DNA of 57,893 nucleotides, taken from contig JARKSE010000024.1 of the NCBI GenBank assembly GCA_029974315.1, positions 1 through 57,893 on the forward strand. Direction: 5' to 3'. The notes under the pieces were generated by a model. The model searched no databases and was not told where the DNA came from. It saw only the letters and a list, made by a program, of their open reading frames with translations. This stretch comes from Paludibacteraceae bacterium (GTDB lineage: Bacteria > Bacteroidota > Bacteroidia > Bacteroidales > Paludibacteraceae). Made by a program: the position numbers and the translations under genes. Of the stretch, positions 11,569 to 17,304 are shown piece by piece (position 1 is the first letter of the stretch; each line of letters begins with the position of its first letter).

Positions 11569-11601
11569 CAATGTGTTTTTCATGGTATTAGATTTAAGGT
11601 T

Positions 11602-11640
11602 AAGAAAAGATTGCGGTTGTCGGGATGACAACCCTTTCTT
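11602..11640 (+). promoter_or_regulatory. Stem-loop in the 5' leader of the 11705 operon
   Basis: Two-part stem: GGTTGTC (11615-11621) pairs with GACAACC (11627-11633) around a 5-base loop. An outer helix, AAGAAAAG (11602-11609) with CTTTCTT (11634-11640), extends it after an internal bulge, and GTTTT follows. It could be a weak terminator ending a small RNA of about 70 bases, or a regulatory leader. No known riboswitch core was recognised. Confidence 0.45.
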
Positions 11641-11704
11641 GTTTTATAGGGGTATTTTCTTTTGAAAATCAACCATTTTAAATAAAAAAATCACTATTCT
11701 TCTT

Positions 11705-12655
11705 ATGGCAACTTTATCGAAACGACTGCTGTCTTGTTTCAAATTGGCACTCAAAAAAGCGTCCAAAACCGTGCTTTGGTTGCTGAAAATAATTCTTCCA
11801 ATTTCGCTTTTTGTGAGTTTTTTGCAGTTTTTCGGCGTTATTGATTGGTTGTCTTTTATTCTGTCTCCTTTTTTTGCCTATTTAGGTCTTCCTGGCGAAG
11901 CCGCTATCGTTTTTATTTCCAGTATTTTTTTAGCGTTGTATGCGCCTATTGCTATTATTGCCACGTTACCATTGGGTGTGCGAGAAATGACGATTTTAGC
12001 ACTAATGTGTTTGATTTCGCACAATATGATTGTGGAAACGGCTGTACAACGTAAAACAGGGTCATCTCCATGGATTATTTTTCCTTTGCGTTTAGGTATG
12101 AGCATTGTGGCGGCGTTGTTGCTCAATTGGTTATTACCCGATCAAATGGGTGATATTACTGGAAGTGTTCAAACAGCTGTTGTTTACGAATCGATTTGGG
12201 CAATGTTGTGGGATTGGTGCATTATGGCGTTTTTCTTAGTGCTGAAAATGAGTGCTATTATATCGGGATTGATGTTTTTACAAGTGGTATTGAAAGAGTT
12301 CAAAATTTTAGATGTGGTGGCACGTCTGTTTGCACCTTTTATGAAAGTGATGGGCTTGTCGAGCGATAGCTCGTTCTTGTGGCTTGTGGCACAAACAGTT
12401 GGACTTACTTATGGCTCTGCTATTTTATTGGAAGAGCTGGAAGACCATGACATGAATGCTGAAGATGTAAATTTACTTAATTATCATATTGCTGTAAATC
12501 ACTCGCTTTTAGAAGATACGTCGCTATTTTGGTCGATGGGTGTGCCTTTGTTTTGGATAACCATTCCTCGGTTTTTATTGGCAGTAGCATTTGTGTGGAT
12601 AGTACGTGCTTATCGTCGTTTTCTTCCTGCTGTGCGAACTTTATGTTGTAAGTAA
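11705..12655 (+). CDS. Nucleoside-recognition (gate) domain membrane protein, SpmA/SpmB-like
   Basis: A 316-residue integral membrane protein with about eight helices. It appears to contain two gate-type halves (about residues 20-140 and 170-300), like SpmA/SpmB or FeoB gate domains. Polar residues in the helices include the EAAIVFISSIF and GLTYGSAILLEEL segments, and the latter is shared with Bacteroidetes proteins annotated as nucleoside-recognition proteins. Transport substrate unknown. It overlaps the next gene by one base (TAATG), so they are translationally coupled. It is preceded by a promoter and structured leader at 11561-11640. Confidence 0.75.
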   Translation: MATLSKRLLSCFKLALKKASKTVLWLLKIILPISLFVSFLQFFGVIDWLSFILSPFFAYLGLPGEAAIVFISSIFLALYAPIAIIATLPLGVREMTILALMCLISHNMIVETAVQRKTGSSPWIIFPLRLGMSIVAALLLNWLLPDQMGDITGSVQTAVVYESIWAMLWDWCIMAFFLVLKMSAIISGLMFLQVVLKEFKILDVVARLFAPFMKVMGLSSDSSFLWLVAQTVGLTYGSAILLEELEDHDMNAEDVNLLNYHIAVNHSLLEDTSLFWSMGVPLFWITIPRFLLAVAFVWIVRAYRRFLPAVRTLCCK

Positions 12656-13095: not shown

Positions 13096-13869
13096 TTATT
13101 CTACATTTGTGCGCACTTTGGTGAGAAATTGTTGCATGCCTACCATATCCTTTTTCTCTATAATGGATTGCAAATATGTCATTTGATTTTTAATGGCTTC
13201 GATCTGTTTTGCTGTGTGCGGGTTGAATAGAATTTCAGACAATAGATAATCATCTTCTGATAATAAGCCTCTGGCTACCGACAAATGTCTTTTAAAAGTG
13301 GTTCCTGGTGCCTCTTGATGTTTCATAACAGCTGCGAAAACCAACGATGATACAAACGGAATTGAGAGCGAGTAAGCAATTGTTTCGTCGTGTTCGGTAA
13401 ATGTATATTCGAAAATATTTAATTGTAACGAGCTGTAAAAATCCTTGAAAAAGGCTTTGCCCATGTGGTCGCTTTCAGCTATGATAATGGCGCTTTGCGT
13501 ACTTAAATCAGACAGATTGGCGAACGTAGGTCCAAACATTGGGTGTGTAGAGACATAACGCATGCTTGTACTCTGATAATAAGTTTGAAGTCCAGTTTTT
13601 ACAGAGGCAATATCAGATAATATACAGTTTTTCGGCAAAAAGGGTAGTACGCTTTCAAATGCACTAATAGTGTTTTTCAGCGTTACGGCATTAATACAAA
13701 TTTCGGGTTCAAATGCTTTGATTTCATCTAATTTTGTAAAGCGTTGCGTATTGAACACAAATCGTAATTTGCTGGGATTGGTGTCGTAGAGTGCAACTTC
13801 GTGCTTCATGCATAGGCAGTCGGTCAAAAACGTCCCCATTTTTCCTGCTCCGAGAATAAGAATTTTCAT
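13096..13869 (-). CDS. tyrA: Prephenate dehydrogenase (TyrA), short form
   Basis: A 257-residue NAD(P)-dependent dehydrogenase that converts prephenate to 4-hydroxyphenylpyruvate for tyrosine synthesis. The N-terminal Rossmann motif is GAGKMG at residues 7-12. The conserved substrate region has LSDIASVKTGL and STHPMFGPT (about residue 107). A helical dimerisation domain follows. There is no C-terminal ACT domain, so feedback by tyrosine, if any, is by another route. It is the last gene of the pheA, aminotransferase, DAHP synthase-chorismate mutase, tyrA operon, 10 bases after the previous gene. Confidence 0.9.
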   Translation of the reverse strand: MKILILGAGKMGTFLTDCLCMKHEVALYDTNPSKLRFVFNTQRFTKLDEIKAFEPEICINAVTLKNTISAFESVLPFLPKNCILSDIASVKTGLQTYYQSTSMRYVSTHPMFGPTFANLSDLSTQSAIIIAESDHMGKAFFKDFYSSLQLNIFEYTFTEHDETIAYSLSIPFVSSLVFAAVMKHQEAPGTTFKRHLSVARGLLSEDDYLLSEILFNPHTAKQIEAIKNQMTYLQSIIEKKDMVGMQQFLTKVRTNVE

Positions 13870-13879
13870 AATCTGAAAT

Positions 13880-14944
13880 TTAATCGTTATTCATTAACTC
13901 AATTTGAACACGCACTGATTCTTCGTGAATGGCTTCTAAAATGGTGCGCATAAACTCGTGGCTCATGCCCAGTTTTTCACCATTATTAATTCGTTTTTCG
14001 AGAATTTCGTTATAACGTCCAGTTTGTAGTACCGCAATACCGTGTTCTTTTTTGTACGTTCCAATCTCTTTGGAAACGCGCATACGCTTGGCCAATATTT
14101 CTAGTAAATTATTATCTAATTCGTCAATTTCACGGCGTAAATCAACTAAATCTTCGGTAGATTGTTTCATTTCTCGAATGACTAATTTTCGTACAATGAC
14201 ATCTAAAACGTCTGGCGAAATTTGTTGATCTTTATCGCTCCAAGCGATGTCTGGAGTGCAGTGGCTTTCGATAATTAAACCGTTGAACTGTAAATCCATA
14301 GCTTGCTGAGAGAGCGGAGCAATAAGTTCACGTTTCCCTCCGATGTGACTTGGATCGCAGAATAGTGGTAATTCAGGATAACGACGATGTAATTCAATCG
14401 GGATATGCCACTGTGGTAAGTTGCGATAGATTTTTTTATCGTACGAACTAAAACCGCGGTGAATAGCTGCAATTTGGTGCAAGCCAGCATTGTAAATACG
14501 TTCGATAGCACCAATCCAAAGTTCCAGGTCCGGATTTACTGGATTTTTAATCAGTATAGGAATGTCAACACCTTTCAAGGCGTCGGCTATTTCTTGCACA
14601 GCAAATGGATTGGCTGTAGTGCGCGCACCAACCCACAAAACGTCAACACCATATTTTAGTGCTTCGTAGGCGTGTTTTGCAGTGGCTACTTCGGTAGCGG
14701 TGTACATACCCGTTTCTTCTTTTACTCGGCGTAGCCATTGTAAACCCTCGCTGCCAACACCTTCAAAACCACCGGGTTTTGTACGAGGTTTCCAAATGCC
14801 AGCGCGGTAAATTTGAACTCCACTTTTAGCCAGAGCTTTGGCGGTTGTCATCACTTGTTCTTCTGTCTCGGCACTACATGGACCAGCAATAATAATAGGT
14901 CGTTTGTGTTCTAATTTGGGGAGTTTAAACCGTTCAAAATTCAT
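13880..14944 (-). CDS. Bifunctional DAHP synthase / chorismate mutase
   Basis: A 354-residue fusion. Residues 1-255 are a KDO8P-like (type I beta) 3-deoxy-7-phosphoheptulonate synthase: IIIAGPCSAETEEQ at 17-30, KPRTKPGGFEGVG, EVATAKHAYEALKYG, LIKNPVNPD and CDPSHIGGKRE. Residues from about 263 form an AroQ-type chorismate mutase helix bundle (VDLRREIDELDNNLLEILAKRM, YKKEHG, EILEKRI). It thus performs both the first committed step of the shikimate pathway and the branch step chorismate to prephenate. This fusion is common in Bacteroidetes and links entry to the Phe/Tyr branch in one polypeptide. The mutase domain may also provide allosteric control by prephenate. Confidence 0.95.
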   Translation of the reverse strand: MNFERFKLPKLEHKRPIIIAGPCSAETEEQVMTTAKALAKSGVQIYRAGIWKPRTKPGGFEGVGSEGLQWLRRVKEETGMYTATEVATAKHAYEALKYGVDVLWVGARTTANPFAVQEIADALKGVDIPILIKNPVNPDLELWIGAIERIYNAGLHQIAAIHRGFSSYDKKIYRNLPQWHIPIELHRRYPELPLFCDPSHIGGKRELIAPLSQQAMDLQFNGLIIESHCTPDIAWSDKDQQISPDVLDVIVRKLVIREMKQSTEDLVDLRREIDELDNNLLEILAKRMRVSKEIGTYKKEHGIAVLQTGRYNEILEKRINNGEKLGMSHEFMRTILEAIHEESVRVQIELMNND

Positions 14945-14964: not shown

Positions 14965-16152
14965 TTATTCTTTTATGTTTTCGTTAATGCGATGGAGTGC
15001 TTCTGCTAATTTTTGTTCATTGCTACACAATGAAATACGGATGTAACGTGAGCCGTTGCTACCGAAAATGAAACCAGGCGTAATAAATACATGTGCTTTT
15101 TGCAAAACTGCTTCTGTTAACTCTTCAACGTGTTGATAATAGTTGGGTATTCGTCCCCACAGAAACATTCCGACTTGCGATTTGTCGTAGCTGCATTGTA
15201 GCGTATCTAAAATCTGTTCTGCTAAATGACGTCGCTTGCTGTACAAGTTGAAATTCATCTCTTCGTGCCAACTTTCATCGTTGTGTAACGCTGTGGTAGC
15301 TGCCAATTGTAAAGGTCGAAACATGCCCGAATCAATATTGCTTTTTACTTTTAAAATCCATTCTATAAACGTTGCATTAGAGGCTACCATACCAACACGC
15401 CAGCCCGGCATATTGTGACTTTTACTCATTGAATTTAACTCAATACAGCACTCTTTAGCGCCCTCTATTTGTAAAATGCTTAACGGATTTTTATTTAAAA
15501 TGAAACTGTACGGATTGTCATTGACAATGATAATGTGATGTTTTCGAGCAAAATCCACTAGTTTTTGATGTAAGTTTAATGTGGCATTGGTACCCGTTGG
15601 CATGTGTGGATAATTGGTCCACATCAATTTTACTTTGCTTAAATCCATGCGTTCCAAAGCATTAAAATCGGGTAACCAGCCATTGTCTTCAGTGAGATTA
15701 TACGGAATAACTTCTGCGCCAAGGAGCGTACTTAACGACGTGTATGTTGGATATCCTGGATTTGGGACTAAAACTTGCTCACCAGGATTGACAAACGCCA
15801 GGGTAATGTGCAAAATGCCCTCTTTGGAACCTATTAGCGGCTGAATTTCGTTGGCGGGATTGAGTGTTACGTGATACCATTTTTTGTAAAAATCGGTAAA
15901 AGCTTGGCGCAGTTCTGTAATTCCTACGTAAGGTTGATAGCCGTGTACATCAGCGTGTGGAGCATATTCGCACAAAGTTTTTATCGTTGTTTCTGATGGG
16001 GGCATGTCCGGACTACCTATGCCCAGGTTAATCACATTCTTGCCTTCGGCATTCATGCGAGCAACTTCTTTCAGTTTGCGTGAGAAATAGTACTCTTGCA
16101 CTGAATCTAAACGTGTGGCACCAACAAAGTTTTTGTTCATAAATAAGTGCAT
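14965..16152 (-). CDS. PLP-dependent class I/II aminotransferase of the Phe/Tyr operon
   Basis: A 395-residue fold-type I aminotransferase. Visible are VINLGIGSPDMPPSE near the start, the PLP-binding region GSKEGILHI, NPGYPTYTSL, and the lysine motif ELNSMSKSHNMPGWRVG carrying the Schiff-base lysine. TNYPHMPTG is close to the usual YPNNPTG. Overall it resembles LL-diaminopimelate and aromatic aminotransferases. Its place between pheA and the DAHP synthase-mutase gene suggests transamination of phenylpyruvate and hydroxyphenylpyruvate or of prephenate; which one is not decided by sequence. The ATG at 16152 directly abuts the pheA stop, and another ATG at 16140 is possible. Confidence 0.88.
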   Translation of the reverse strand: MHLFMNKNFVGATRLDSVQEYYFSRKLKEVARMNAEGKNVINLGIGSPDMPPSETTIKTLCEYAPHADVHGYQPYVGITELRQAFTDFYKKWYHVTLNPANEIQPLIGSKEGILHITLAFVNPGEQVLVPNPGYPTYTSLSTLLGAEVIPYNLTEDNGWLPDFNALERMDLSKVKLMWTNYPHMPTGTNATLNLHQKLVDFARKHHIIIVNDNPYSFILNKNPLSILQIEGAKECCIELNSMSKSHNMPGWRVGMVASNATFIEWILKVKSNIDSGMFRPLQLAATTALHNDESWHEEMNFNLYSKRRHLAEQILDTLQCSYDKSQVGMFLWGRIPNYYQHVEELTEAVLQKAHVFITPGFIFGSNGSRYIRISLCSNEQKLAEALHRINENIKE

Positions 16153-17001
16153 TTAAATAGTTTGTTCGCCTTCAGAATATTCGCCTAAAATTTTGATATT
16201 GCGTATCAAAGGGCGAATCGCATCAACTGCTTGCGTATAACGTAAGTAATTTTCAAAACTTAAATCGATGTAAAATAGATATTCCCACTCTTGTCCAATA
16301 ATAGGTAATGACTGAATTTTGGTCAAATTGATGTGGTAGCAGGAGAGCACGGTAAGCACTTTCGATAAACTGCCTTGTTCGTGTGGGAGGGAAAAAACAA
16401 GTGATGCCTTGTTGCATTGTTCTTGTTGCACCATTTTTTCGACTTTATCTTTGTGGGCTACCATTAAAAATCGCGTAAAATTGTGTTTGTTGGTTTCTAT
16501 TCCTTCTGCTAAAATTTTTAGTCCAAACTGTTTGGCGGTATCTGCGTGACAAATGCCTGCAATGCCGAACTGTTTTTTTGTAGCTATTTCATAAGCGCTT
16601 TTGGCTGTATCATCACTTTCTACCAATTGAATATGAGGATGTTCAGATAAAAATTGTTCGCACTGTAACAGTGCCATGTGGTGCGAATGTACTTCTCGAA
16701 TATTTGTAATATCTTGTCCATCTAAAGCTACCAAACTATGTTTTATGCGTAGTTTGTGTTCGCCAAAAATGCGCAGGTCGCTATCTTTAATGAGGTTATA
16801 ATTTTGTAACAGGCTACCTGCAATAGTGTTTTCGATAGCGATAGCTCCTACGATAGTTGGATTTTTTCGAACCAAATCAATTGATTCTTTGAACGTATCG
16901 CACGGTAAAATTTCTATATCGTTGCCGAAATAGAGGCGTGAAACAATGTCATGAAACGAGCCTTTTGCTCCTTGAATAGCGACTTGAATAGATGAATTCA
17001 T
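16153..17001 (-). CDS. pheA: Prephenate dehydratase with ACT domain
   Basis: A 282-residue monofunctional prephenate dehydratase giving phenylpyruvate for phenylalanine synthesis. The N-terminal catalytic lobes show IQGAKGSFHDIVSRLYFG, AIAIENTIAGSLL, and the catalytic NFTRFLMV motif (about residue 178). The C-terminal ACT domain (about 200-275) begins KASLVFSLPHEQGSL and should bind phenylalanine. The usual ESRP of this domain reads QSLP here. It is the first structural gene of the operon and lies 20 bases after the terminator half of a Phe/Tyr attenuator, so both allosteric and transcriptional feedback by phenylalanine are expected. Confidence 0.95.
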   Translation of the reverse strand: MNSSIQVAIQGAKGSFHDIVSRLYFGNDIEILPCDTFKESIDLVRKNPTIVGAIAIENTIAGSLLQNYNLIKDSDLRIFGEHKLRIKHSLVALDGQDITNIREVHSHHMALLQCEQFLSEHPHIQLVESDDTAKSAYEIATKKQFGIAGICHADTAKQFGLKILAEGIETNKHNFTRFLMVAHKDKVEKMVQQEQCNKASLVFSLPHEQGSLSKVLTVLSCYHINLTKIQSLPIIGQEWEYLFYIDLSFENYLRYTQAVDAIRPLIRNIKILGEYSEGEQTI

Positions 17002-17020
17002 ATATTGTTTTTAACAAACA

Positions 17021-17119
17021 AAAAATCCTGCTCGTATAGGAGCAGGATTTTTGTATAATTACAAATTTTGAAATCGCAATAACATACATCAAATCCCGCT
17101 CTTACTGCTAAAGTAAAAG
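17021..17119 (-). promoter_or_regulatory. Phe/Tyr attenuator: pause stem, antiterminator and terminator
   Basis: Read on the reverse strand. Segment 1, CTTTTAC (17113-17119), pairs with segment 2a, GTAAGAG (17099-17105), in a 7-bp helix with one wobble. Segment 2b, GAGCGGGATTT (17091-17101), can pair over 11 bp (one G-U) with segment 3, AAATCCTGCTC (17040-17050), giving an antiterminator. Segment 3 also pairs perfectly over 13 bp with segment 4 (17021-17033), giving a GC-rich terminator with a run of T. Segment 1 lies in the Phe/Tyr codons of the leader peptide and segment 2b ends at its stop codon. This is the classic mutually exclusive layout of ribosome-mediated attenuation. Confidence 0.88.
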
Positions 17120-17154
17120 TAGAAAAAGAAGTAGTTTGAAAATAACGATCTCAT
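17089..17154 (-). CDS. Leader peptide of the phe/tyr operon (PheL-like)
   Basis: A 21-codon reading frame, ATG at 17154 and TGA at 17089-17091. It encodes MRSLFSNY, then FFFYFYF, then SSKSGI. Six of the 21 residues are Phe and three are Tyr, with seven consecutive Phe or Tyr codons at 9-15. This mirrors the E. coli PheL peptide in function but adds tyrosine, which fits an operon that makes both amino acids. A ribosome stalled in codons 9-14 would leave the antiterminator arm (17091-17101) free, while one reaching the stop codon would cover it and allow termination. The ATG lies 20 bases after the end of tRNA-Gln. Confidence 0.85.
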   Translation of the reverse strand: MRSLFSNYFFFYFYFSSKSGI

Positions 17155-17174
17155 ATAAAATACTTTAAAACTAG

Positions 17175-17245
17175 TTGTCTCACCAGGATTCGAACCTAGA
17201 CAGACAGTACCAAAAACTGTAGTGCTACCGTTACACCATGAGACA
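17175..17245 (-). tRNA. tRNA-Gln (anticodon TTG)
   Basis: A 71-base cloverleaf on the reverse strand. Acceptor TGTCTCA pairs with TGAGACA, anticodon stem ACAGT/ACTGT encloses loop TTTTGGT with anticodon TTG, and the T arm has GTTCGAA. Discriminator A; CCA not encoded. It ends 20 bases before the Phe/Tyr leader peptide ATG, with no terminator between, so it is probably cotranscribed with the phe operon. Confidence 0.95.
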
Positions 17246-17272
17246 ATACCGCTTCCTCCGAAGAAGGTGGTG

Positions 17273-17304
17273 CAAAGGTAAAACTTTTTTTTATTCCCTC
17301 CAAA
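17273..17304 (-). promoter_or_regulatory. Promoter of tRNA-Gln and probably of the phe/tyr operon
   Basis: Reverse strand TTTG (17301-17304), 20 bases, TACCTTTG (17273-17280), an excellent consensus match, 27 bases before the tRNA. No comparable promoter exists in the 20 bases between tRNA and leader peptide. Confidence 0.82.

Follow-up and report, generated by a model that had tools for sequence, protein, structure and literature searches.

A predicted ribosome-mediated attenuator with mixed Phe and Tyr codons upstream of the pheA operon in a Paludibacteraceae bacterium and its relatives

What decides whether the aromatic amino acid genes of this Paludibacteraceae bacterium are transcribed, when the first of them, pheA, is preceded by a short frame full of Phe and Tyr codons and by a hairpin? 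The window, by which we mean the whole stretch of 57,893 nucleotides analyzed here, carries four genes in a row on its minus strand, with intergenic gaps of 0, 20, and 10 nt (Table 1). A first-pass annotation, made from the letters alone, had placed pheA, an aminotransferase, a DAHP synthase-mutase, and tyrA under joint control of an attenuator, and this gene content was borne out by Pfam; the same order was kept in 65 of 80 named Bacteroidales loci, several of the others being interrupted by contig ends. One Bacteroidales pheA among the 80 (L104) lacked an attenuator and was also the sole locus with no other operon gene found downstream.

The anatomy of the region upstream of pheA largely agreed with what had been proposed. 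The 21-residue leader frame was confirmed as a 21-codon ORF at 17154-17089, with the correction that its run of Phe/Tyr codons is not seven long (FFFYFYF) but eight (YFFFYFYF, codons 8–15). The pause stem said to lie inside these codons corresponds to a 7-bp 1:2 stem whose strand 1 falls within the run, and the 11-bp antiterminator said to end at the leader stop codon does so, its 5′ arm ending on the first base of the stop and its 11 pairs including one G-U. We likewise recovered the 13-bp terminator shortly before pheA, with a 6-nt loop and a U-rich tail, 19 nt before the pheA ATG at 17001. Helix energies calculated in isolation were −3.4 kcal/mol for 1:2, −10.6 kcal/mol for 2:3 (in a 10-bp version), and −17.7 kcal/mol for 3:4, and a 186-nt stretch containing the leader, which includes 27 nt of the tRNA 3′ end, folded better than all of 200 dinucleotide shuffles (z = −5.4).

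Table 1. Positions in the window of the element, its candidate promoter, and the downstream genes.
Feature	Coordinates	Strand	Remarks
TTTG, candidate −33 element of a Bacteroidetes primary-sigma promoter	17301..17304	minus	20 nt from −7 element; read from sequence
TACCTTTG, candidate −7 element (TAnnTTTG)	17273..17280	minus	Upstream of tRNA gene
tRNA-Gln (anticodon UUG)	17174..17245	minus	ARAGORN, Rfam; ends 19 nt before leader ATG
Leader peptide ORF MRSLFSNYFFFYFYFSSKSGI	17089..17154	minus	ATG 17154-17152, stop 17091-17089; 21 aa, 8 consecutive Tyr/Phe codons
1:2 (pause) stem strand 1, CUUUUAC	17113..17119	minus	Inside Phe/Tyr codons
1:2 stem strand 2, GUAAGAG	17099..17105	minus	7 bp with strand 1
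Antiterminator 5′ arm GAGCGGGAUUU	17091..17101	minus	Alignment and fold scan; pairs with AAAUCCUGCUC
Antiterminator 3′ arm AAAUCCUGCUC	17040..17050	minus	Shared with terminator 5′ arm
Strand 3, terminator 5′ arm	17040..17052	minus	17040-17050 doubles as antiterminator 3′ arm
Strand 4, intrinsic terminator 3′ arm	17021..17033	minus	Runs into U-tract; terminator spans 17052-17021
pheA, prephenate dehydratase	16153..17001	minus	Pfam PDT 2.8e-51
Class I/II aminotransferase	14965..16152	minus	Pfam Aminotran_1_2 1.4e-62
DAHP synthase fused to type II chorismate mutase	13880..14944	minus	Pfam DAHP_synth_1 and CM_2
tyrA-like prephenate dehydrogenase	13096..13869	minus	Pfam PDH_N 1.2e-8

A U-rich stretch might yield such a frame by accident, and we therefore compared the arrangement with shuffled and unrelated sequence. 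Short ORFs on both strands of the window held two F/Y runs of at least 5, of which the run of 8 alone has a terminator after it. In 60 dinucleotide-shuffled windows, runs of at least 7 were absent, as were runs of at least 5 with a terminator. Over the 80 named loci, an aromatic leader (at least 6 aromatic residues in 9, at most 600 nt upstream) preceded 74 of 77 pheA-proximal ORF starts as against 13 of 658 other long ORFs, and it was present in 103 of 104 real 450-nt pheA upstreams vs. 7 of 520 shuffled ones. Since the shuffles give no such combination, and given the pheA-proximal enrichment, we concluded that chance is excluded.

We then asked how the predicted fold depends on the position of a translating ribosome, which was taken to hide the whole transcript as far as 13 nt beyond the beginning of the A-site codon. 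With the A-site on codons 8–14 of the window leader, the predicted probability of the antiterminator was 0.95–0.99 and that of the terminator at most 0.04, while with the A-site on codons 16–22 the terminator was predicted at 0.82–0.95; codon 7 was intermediate (antiterminator about 0.57) and codon 15 partly switched. At an 11-nt offset the antiterminator window (0.84–0.99) covered exactly codons 8–15, the eight aromatic codons, and offsets of 9, 15, and 17 nt moved it by 1–2 codons, taking in codon 7 or 6, or 16. For footprint offsets of 9–17 nt, the model predicts antitermination when the A-site lies on the aromatic run or no more than two codons away from it. The same scan was applied to 126 distinct leaders, namely those among 180 upstreams that yielded both an ATG leader and a terminator. 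The terminator probability reached its minimum on the aromatic run in 124 of them and exceeded 0.5 at the stop codon in all 126, with means of 0.76 with the A-site on the run vs. 0.97 after it. A full equilibrium switch (terminator below 0.2) was predicted in only 32 of the 126, which suggests that in most relatives the antiterminator would have to be in place before strand 4 is synthesized, just as the classical model has it. Without a ribosome, a window transcript ending before strand 4 favored 2:3 (0.92) and the full transcript favored the terminator (0.87); because the shortened transcript favors 2:3, the 1:2 stem alone would be a weak guard. In the window the leader stop falls where strand 2 ends, and in many relatives, such as those ending YFYFSTK, it comes ahead of that strand; a finished ribosome at either position would be expected to interfere with strand 2.

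Whether these helices are maintained in relatives was assessed in an alignment, A2, of 44 sequences. These were drawn from 68 distinct regions by removing near-duplicates and a number of the most divergent; the 68 are what remained, after identical regions were collapsed, of the loci among 110 (L001-L110, with 102 distinct 150-nt upstreams) in which a scan found leader and terminator. When all column pairs were ranked by two-sided changes in an unguided scan, the 3:4 stem came first (70 cells) and the 2:3 stem second (43 cells), numbers reached by none of 500 shuffles in either case, in a test that takes no account of kinship among the sequences. In the 3:4 stem 96.1% of cells were paired, 7 of 11 pairs showed two-sided change (reached by 9 of 500 shuffles), and the number of pair types was reached by none. 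For the 2:3 stem, 91.5% of cells were paired (0 of 500 shuffles), as against 33–46% in slid controls; its 4 pairs with two-sided change (81 of 500) and its 8 pair types (489 of 500) did not go beyond the shuffles. The 1:2 stem was paired in 86.4% of cells with 12 two-sided cells (0 of 500 for both), its pairs with two-sided change and its pair types being reached by 30 and 338 of 500 shuffles, respectively, and its columns 28–30 were unpaired in 12 to 16 of the 44 sequences. For all three helices the covariation score lay above every one of the 500 shuffles, and slid versions paired worse in every case. One strand is kept complementary to two others, since columns 52-126 (A-U in 22, G-C in 21, G-U in 1) and columns 126-146 (C-G in 21, U-A in 12, U-G in 11) co-vary. 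An extra basal helix around the run, UUUACAUAY / RUAUGUAAA, was seen in many relatives (mean best 6.70 vs. 5.95 shuffled, 0 of 300 as high) and is weak in the window itself. Conservation of the Phe/Tyr run and covariation of the three helices had been put forward as checks in the first-pass annotation. The run is indeed kept in relatives; the alignment indicates strong covariation for the terminator, clear covariation by two-sided changes, though not on every measure, for the antiterminator, and weak covariation for the 1:2 stem.

The locus thus combines a run of product codons, a terminator between leader and first gene, a mutually exclusive antiterminator, and a predicted switch with ribosome position, which are the marks of an attenuator. 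Its anatomy, conservation, and covariation, and the placing of the aromatic run so as to switch the predicted fold, are observed. We consider it very likely (probability about 0.93) that the element is a ribosome-mediated transcription attenuator of the classical 1:2 / 2:3 / 3:4 type that controls the Phe/Tyr operon. RNA polymerase would start upstream of tRNA-Gln and then transcribe the leader. If charged Tyr-tRNA or Phe-tRNA were scarce, a ribosome would stall in the eight Tyr/Phe codons and cover strand 1, so that strand 2 (17101-17091) could pair with strand 3 (17050-17040); no terminator would form, and pheA, the aminotransferase, DAHP synthase-mutase, and tyrA would be transcribed. With both charged tRNAs plentiful, the ribosome would reach the stop at the end of strand 2 and cover that strand, leaving strands 3 and 4 to form the terminator. 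Translation of the leader, stalling within it, a response to Phe and Tyr, and co-transcription with tRNA-Gln are steps that we infer from this arrangement.

The first-pass annotation had also supposed that both Phe-tRNA and Tyr-tRNA are sensed. The 92 distinct leaders contained on average 5.1 Phe and 4.4 Tyr codons, with Trp in 9, and codon 5 of A2 was Phe in 22, Tyr in 21, and Trp in 1 of 44 sequences. This near-equal use, together with the interchange at codon 5, supports the supposition and makes it likely, as far as sequence comparison can tell, that both tRNAs are sensed. The competing idea is that only Phe is sensed, the Tyr codons being there because the 1:2 stem needs UAC. Alignment codons 7–9 (Tyr-Phe-Tyr) do overlap strand 1, and codons 8–9 read Phe-Tyr in all 44 sequences with nearly invariant nucleotides (UUU in 44, UAC in 41), as the 1:2 stem would require; at codons 7–9, a reason for Tyr that lies in the stem alone is possible. 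The second base of codon 6 also pairs with column 55 in 33 of 44 sequences (7 of 1000 shuffles), a pairing that is out of register with its neighbors and that we discounted as evidence because it was the best of about 29 columns tried. However, codons 3–6, which lie upstream of the stem, are still Tyr in 36, 8, 21, and 12 of the 44 sequences, respectively, and 90 of the 92 distinct leaders have at least two Tyr codons. Nor does in-register column pairing clearly explain the choice at codon 5, the observed pairing being reached by 85 of 1000 shuffles, and the notion that base pairing dictates Phe or Tyr there is unsupported. Sensing of Phe alone therefore appears unlikely to us.

To follow the element through the family, we built a covariance model, R1, from 44 sequences. 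PheA was found in 101 of 150 family genomes, the window's own included, and the upstreams of 100 of these 101 were examined (not included were G089, whose match was fragmentary, and an additional copy in G035). R1 found the element in all 30 of a first family set, 21 of them training sequences, and in 64 of 70 of a second set at E 1.5e-6 or better; three matches of the second set were weak (L188, L218, and L219; E 0.001–0.005) and three loci gave no match (L205, L216, and L217). Three of the 70 (L157, L163, and L165) include a sequence used in training, which leaves 61 of 67 as the independent count. The leaders of L218 and L219, which belong to a divergent PheA in genus g8, read YYYYWFRF or YFYYWFRF, with Trp and Arg. 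Among the 80 named Bacteroidales loci R1 was applied to 70 (23 of them training sequences; L031-L034, L042, L049, L099, L100, L107, and L108 lay outside the search), and 68 scored below E 0.05, with L082 at 0.19 and L104 without a match. In the window genome itself there was one strong match, this element, at 102.8 bits. We rejected a second copy there: the 8 weaker matches scored at most 33.6 bits, the 6 inspected (L112, L114-L118) held no F/Y run longer than 2, and a further weaker match, L113, is the same terminator read from the opposite strand.

Across the class, R1 matched 26 of 295 genomes, own included, under strict filters that lose weak matches. Besides the window it marked 26 places, of which 20 precede pheA, 3 precede a DAHP synthase-mutase, and 3 (L136, L142, and L144), lacking an aromatic leader, were taken to be plain terminators. 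The three before a DAHP synthase-chorismate mutase instead of pheA (L138, L140, and L141, family f20) show a similar aromatic leader and terminator. Independently of R1, a PheA match was obtained in 58 of 197 class genomes, own included (the fragmentary G172 was left out). Outside the order, 30 of 50 PheA upstreams had an aromatic leader (F, Y, or W, at least 6 in 9), 22 of them with a terminator by a simple scan, and some of these distant leaders include Trp, as in YFWFYYYFF. Three members of family f21 with 5 aromatic residues in 9 (TYFWFYP) were counted as misses, and the leader was present in none of 7 members of family f17, which shows that the element is not universal. Among phages, a search with PheA returned 16 records, all below 60% identity, and was uninformative.

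While the first-pass anatomy of leader and helices stood, it had missed the tRNA-Gln gene that lies between the candidate promoter and the leader. The Bacteroidetes promoter consensus is given as TTTG / TAnnTTTG (PMC7366714). Of 106 loci in which a leader was called, 92 have a TAnnTTTG box no more than 110 nt from where that leader starts, at a median of 33.5 nt; 12 of these 92 boxes are downstream of the called start, and the window genome and L002 are outside the 92. In the window the distance from box to leader start is 126 nt, the gap being filled by tRNA-Gln. The tRNA-Gln(UUG) gene occupies this place in both species of the genus that were examined (the window genome and L002), and no tRNA was found at that position in the other 108 of the 110 loci scanned, 6 of which have less than 250 nt upstream. 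When the two genomes of the genus were searched at the DNA level with the 401-nt region, neither showed another tRNA-Gln(UUG), the window genome being 1.63 Mb and 82% complete; the second match of that search in G030 was a tRNA-Gln(CUG). From the order of these parts, the transcript in this genus very probably begins upstream of the tRNA-Gln gene. One transcript would then run through tRNA-Gln and leader, the promoter would need to stay active, and the attenuator would also end the tRNA transcript. It could be argued that the hairpin at 17052-17021 is a mere tRNA-Gln terminator and the F/Y run a by-product of U-rich sequence, as 19 nt separate the tRNA from the leader ATG and its transcript would indeed be terminated by the hairpin. 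Yet the tRNA occurs only in this genus's two of the 110 loci, whereas most of the remaining loci retain both leader and terminator, and shuffled upstreams rarely give an aromatic leader (7 of 520) when real ones nearly always do (103 of 104). We rejected this explanation as scarcely credible because the element is conserved without the tRNA, and kept to the attenuator.

A second variation was found in relatives, where two R1 matches on the same strand precede pheA in 11 of 100 family genomes: 9 of the 12 PheA genomes of genus g28 (L013, L014, L015, L170, L171, L174, L175, L177, and L179) and both genomes of genus g6 (L011 and L184). A named record, L035, is tandem too and shares its upstream with L014 and L015. 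The tandem spans include L170:418-683 and L013:1222-1483, and L184 lies on the minus strand. Both leaders are aromatic, and the second has complementary strands of its own, GGCGGGA/UCCCGCC in L013 and GGUGAGA/UCUCACC in L184; as the second R1 matches score weakly (E 4e-5 to 0.015), part of the case for the second elements comes from inspection of the sequences themselves. Genome G138 (L188) has a single attenuator, of the second tandem type. Tandem attenuators with two leader ORFs in series before one operon are described for Salmonella mgtCBR (PMC3641672); the relatives' tandems differ in carrying the same aromatic codon class in both leaders, and the window has a single attenuator. At its widest, our interpretation is that much of class Bacteroidia shares a one-leader attenuator reading Phe and Tyr, and in some lineages Trp; that the leader transcript of this genus has taken in a tRNA-Gln(UUG) gene, probably the sole copy, whose transcript the attenuator also ends; and that two other genera of the family have two attenuators in series as a two-stage gate on the same signal. 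We would give this even odds.

Other kinds of leader were also considered. TnaC is an example of peptide-specific ribosome arrest, and a leader of that kind could sense free Phe or Tyr instead of stalling at specific codons. The recurrence of aromatic leaders before pheA across the whole class would suit such a peptide, but what is conserved is mainly aromatic character, with Phe and Tyr interchanging at alignment codons 4–6, and lineages differ in where the stop falls and in the residues that follow the run, so that we regard arrest by the peptide as very improbable compared with codon-specific stalling. A T-box was absent among 5 Rfam matches at the gathering threshold and 38 matches up to E 10 over 16950-17300. 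No known Rfam leader family reached threshold in the window, and in 14 related loci nothing at the element's position passed the gathering threshold. At window positions 11573-11648 (plus strand) Rfam did match the sRNA BTncRNA_FopS (RF04319, 77.9 bits), directly upstream of an ORF at 11705.

How does the element compare with known attenuators? The E. coli phe attenuator consists of a leader peptide rich in codons for the product, alternative 2:3 and 3:4 helices, and a U-tract, and E. coli PheL has Phe codons and no Tyr codons. The enterobacterial pheA (pheL) attenuator and the present element share the operon head, a product-codon leader, the 2:3 / 3:4 alternatives, and the U-tract, whereas here Phe and Tyr codons are near-equal in number and the operon adds DAHP synthase-mutase and tyrA; the Rfam Phe_leader model (RF01859) scored 22.1 bits at the element, below its gathering score of 55. 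Mixed amino acid specificity within one leader is a property of the E. coli thr and ilvGMEDA attenuators, which serve different amino acids and a different pathway, and Thr_leader scored 28.6 bits against a gathering score of 55. The proposed mechanism is textbook phe-type attenuation. What differs is the mixture of Phe and Tyr codons, the tRNA-Gln(UUG) gene between promoter and leader in this genus, and the tandems in 11 of 100 family genomes.

Bacteroidetes cases may be listed in the 2010 comparative attenuator survey of Lopatovskaya and colleagues, which is cited in PMC4833913, and we therefore make no claim of first prediction. In Flavobacterium psychrophilum and other Flavobacteriaceae, a conserved structured 5′ element without an Rfam hit was described in 2021 upstream of pheA, with clues for leader-peptide attenuation (PMC9723704), which means that such elements already had a precedent in the phylum. 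It shares phylum and gene with ours, and the section concerned gives neither a leader peptide sequence nor a helix and does not say which amino acid is sensed (PMC9723704); the two are likely identical. Small ORFs reminiscent of leader peptides are also reported from B. thetaiotaomicron (PMC7366714). In the titles and abstracts of the literature matches listed, we found no description of the element with its leader and helices.

Bacteroidota are major gut and environmental bacteria whose amino acid control is little described in the literature that we found. Here, a conserved element without a matching Rfam family predicts, with the exact bases given, how Phe and Tyr synthesis may be regulated across much of the class, and the tRNA-Gln insertion of this genus and the tandem attenuators of its relatives offer testable variations on a textbook mechanism.
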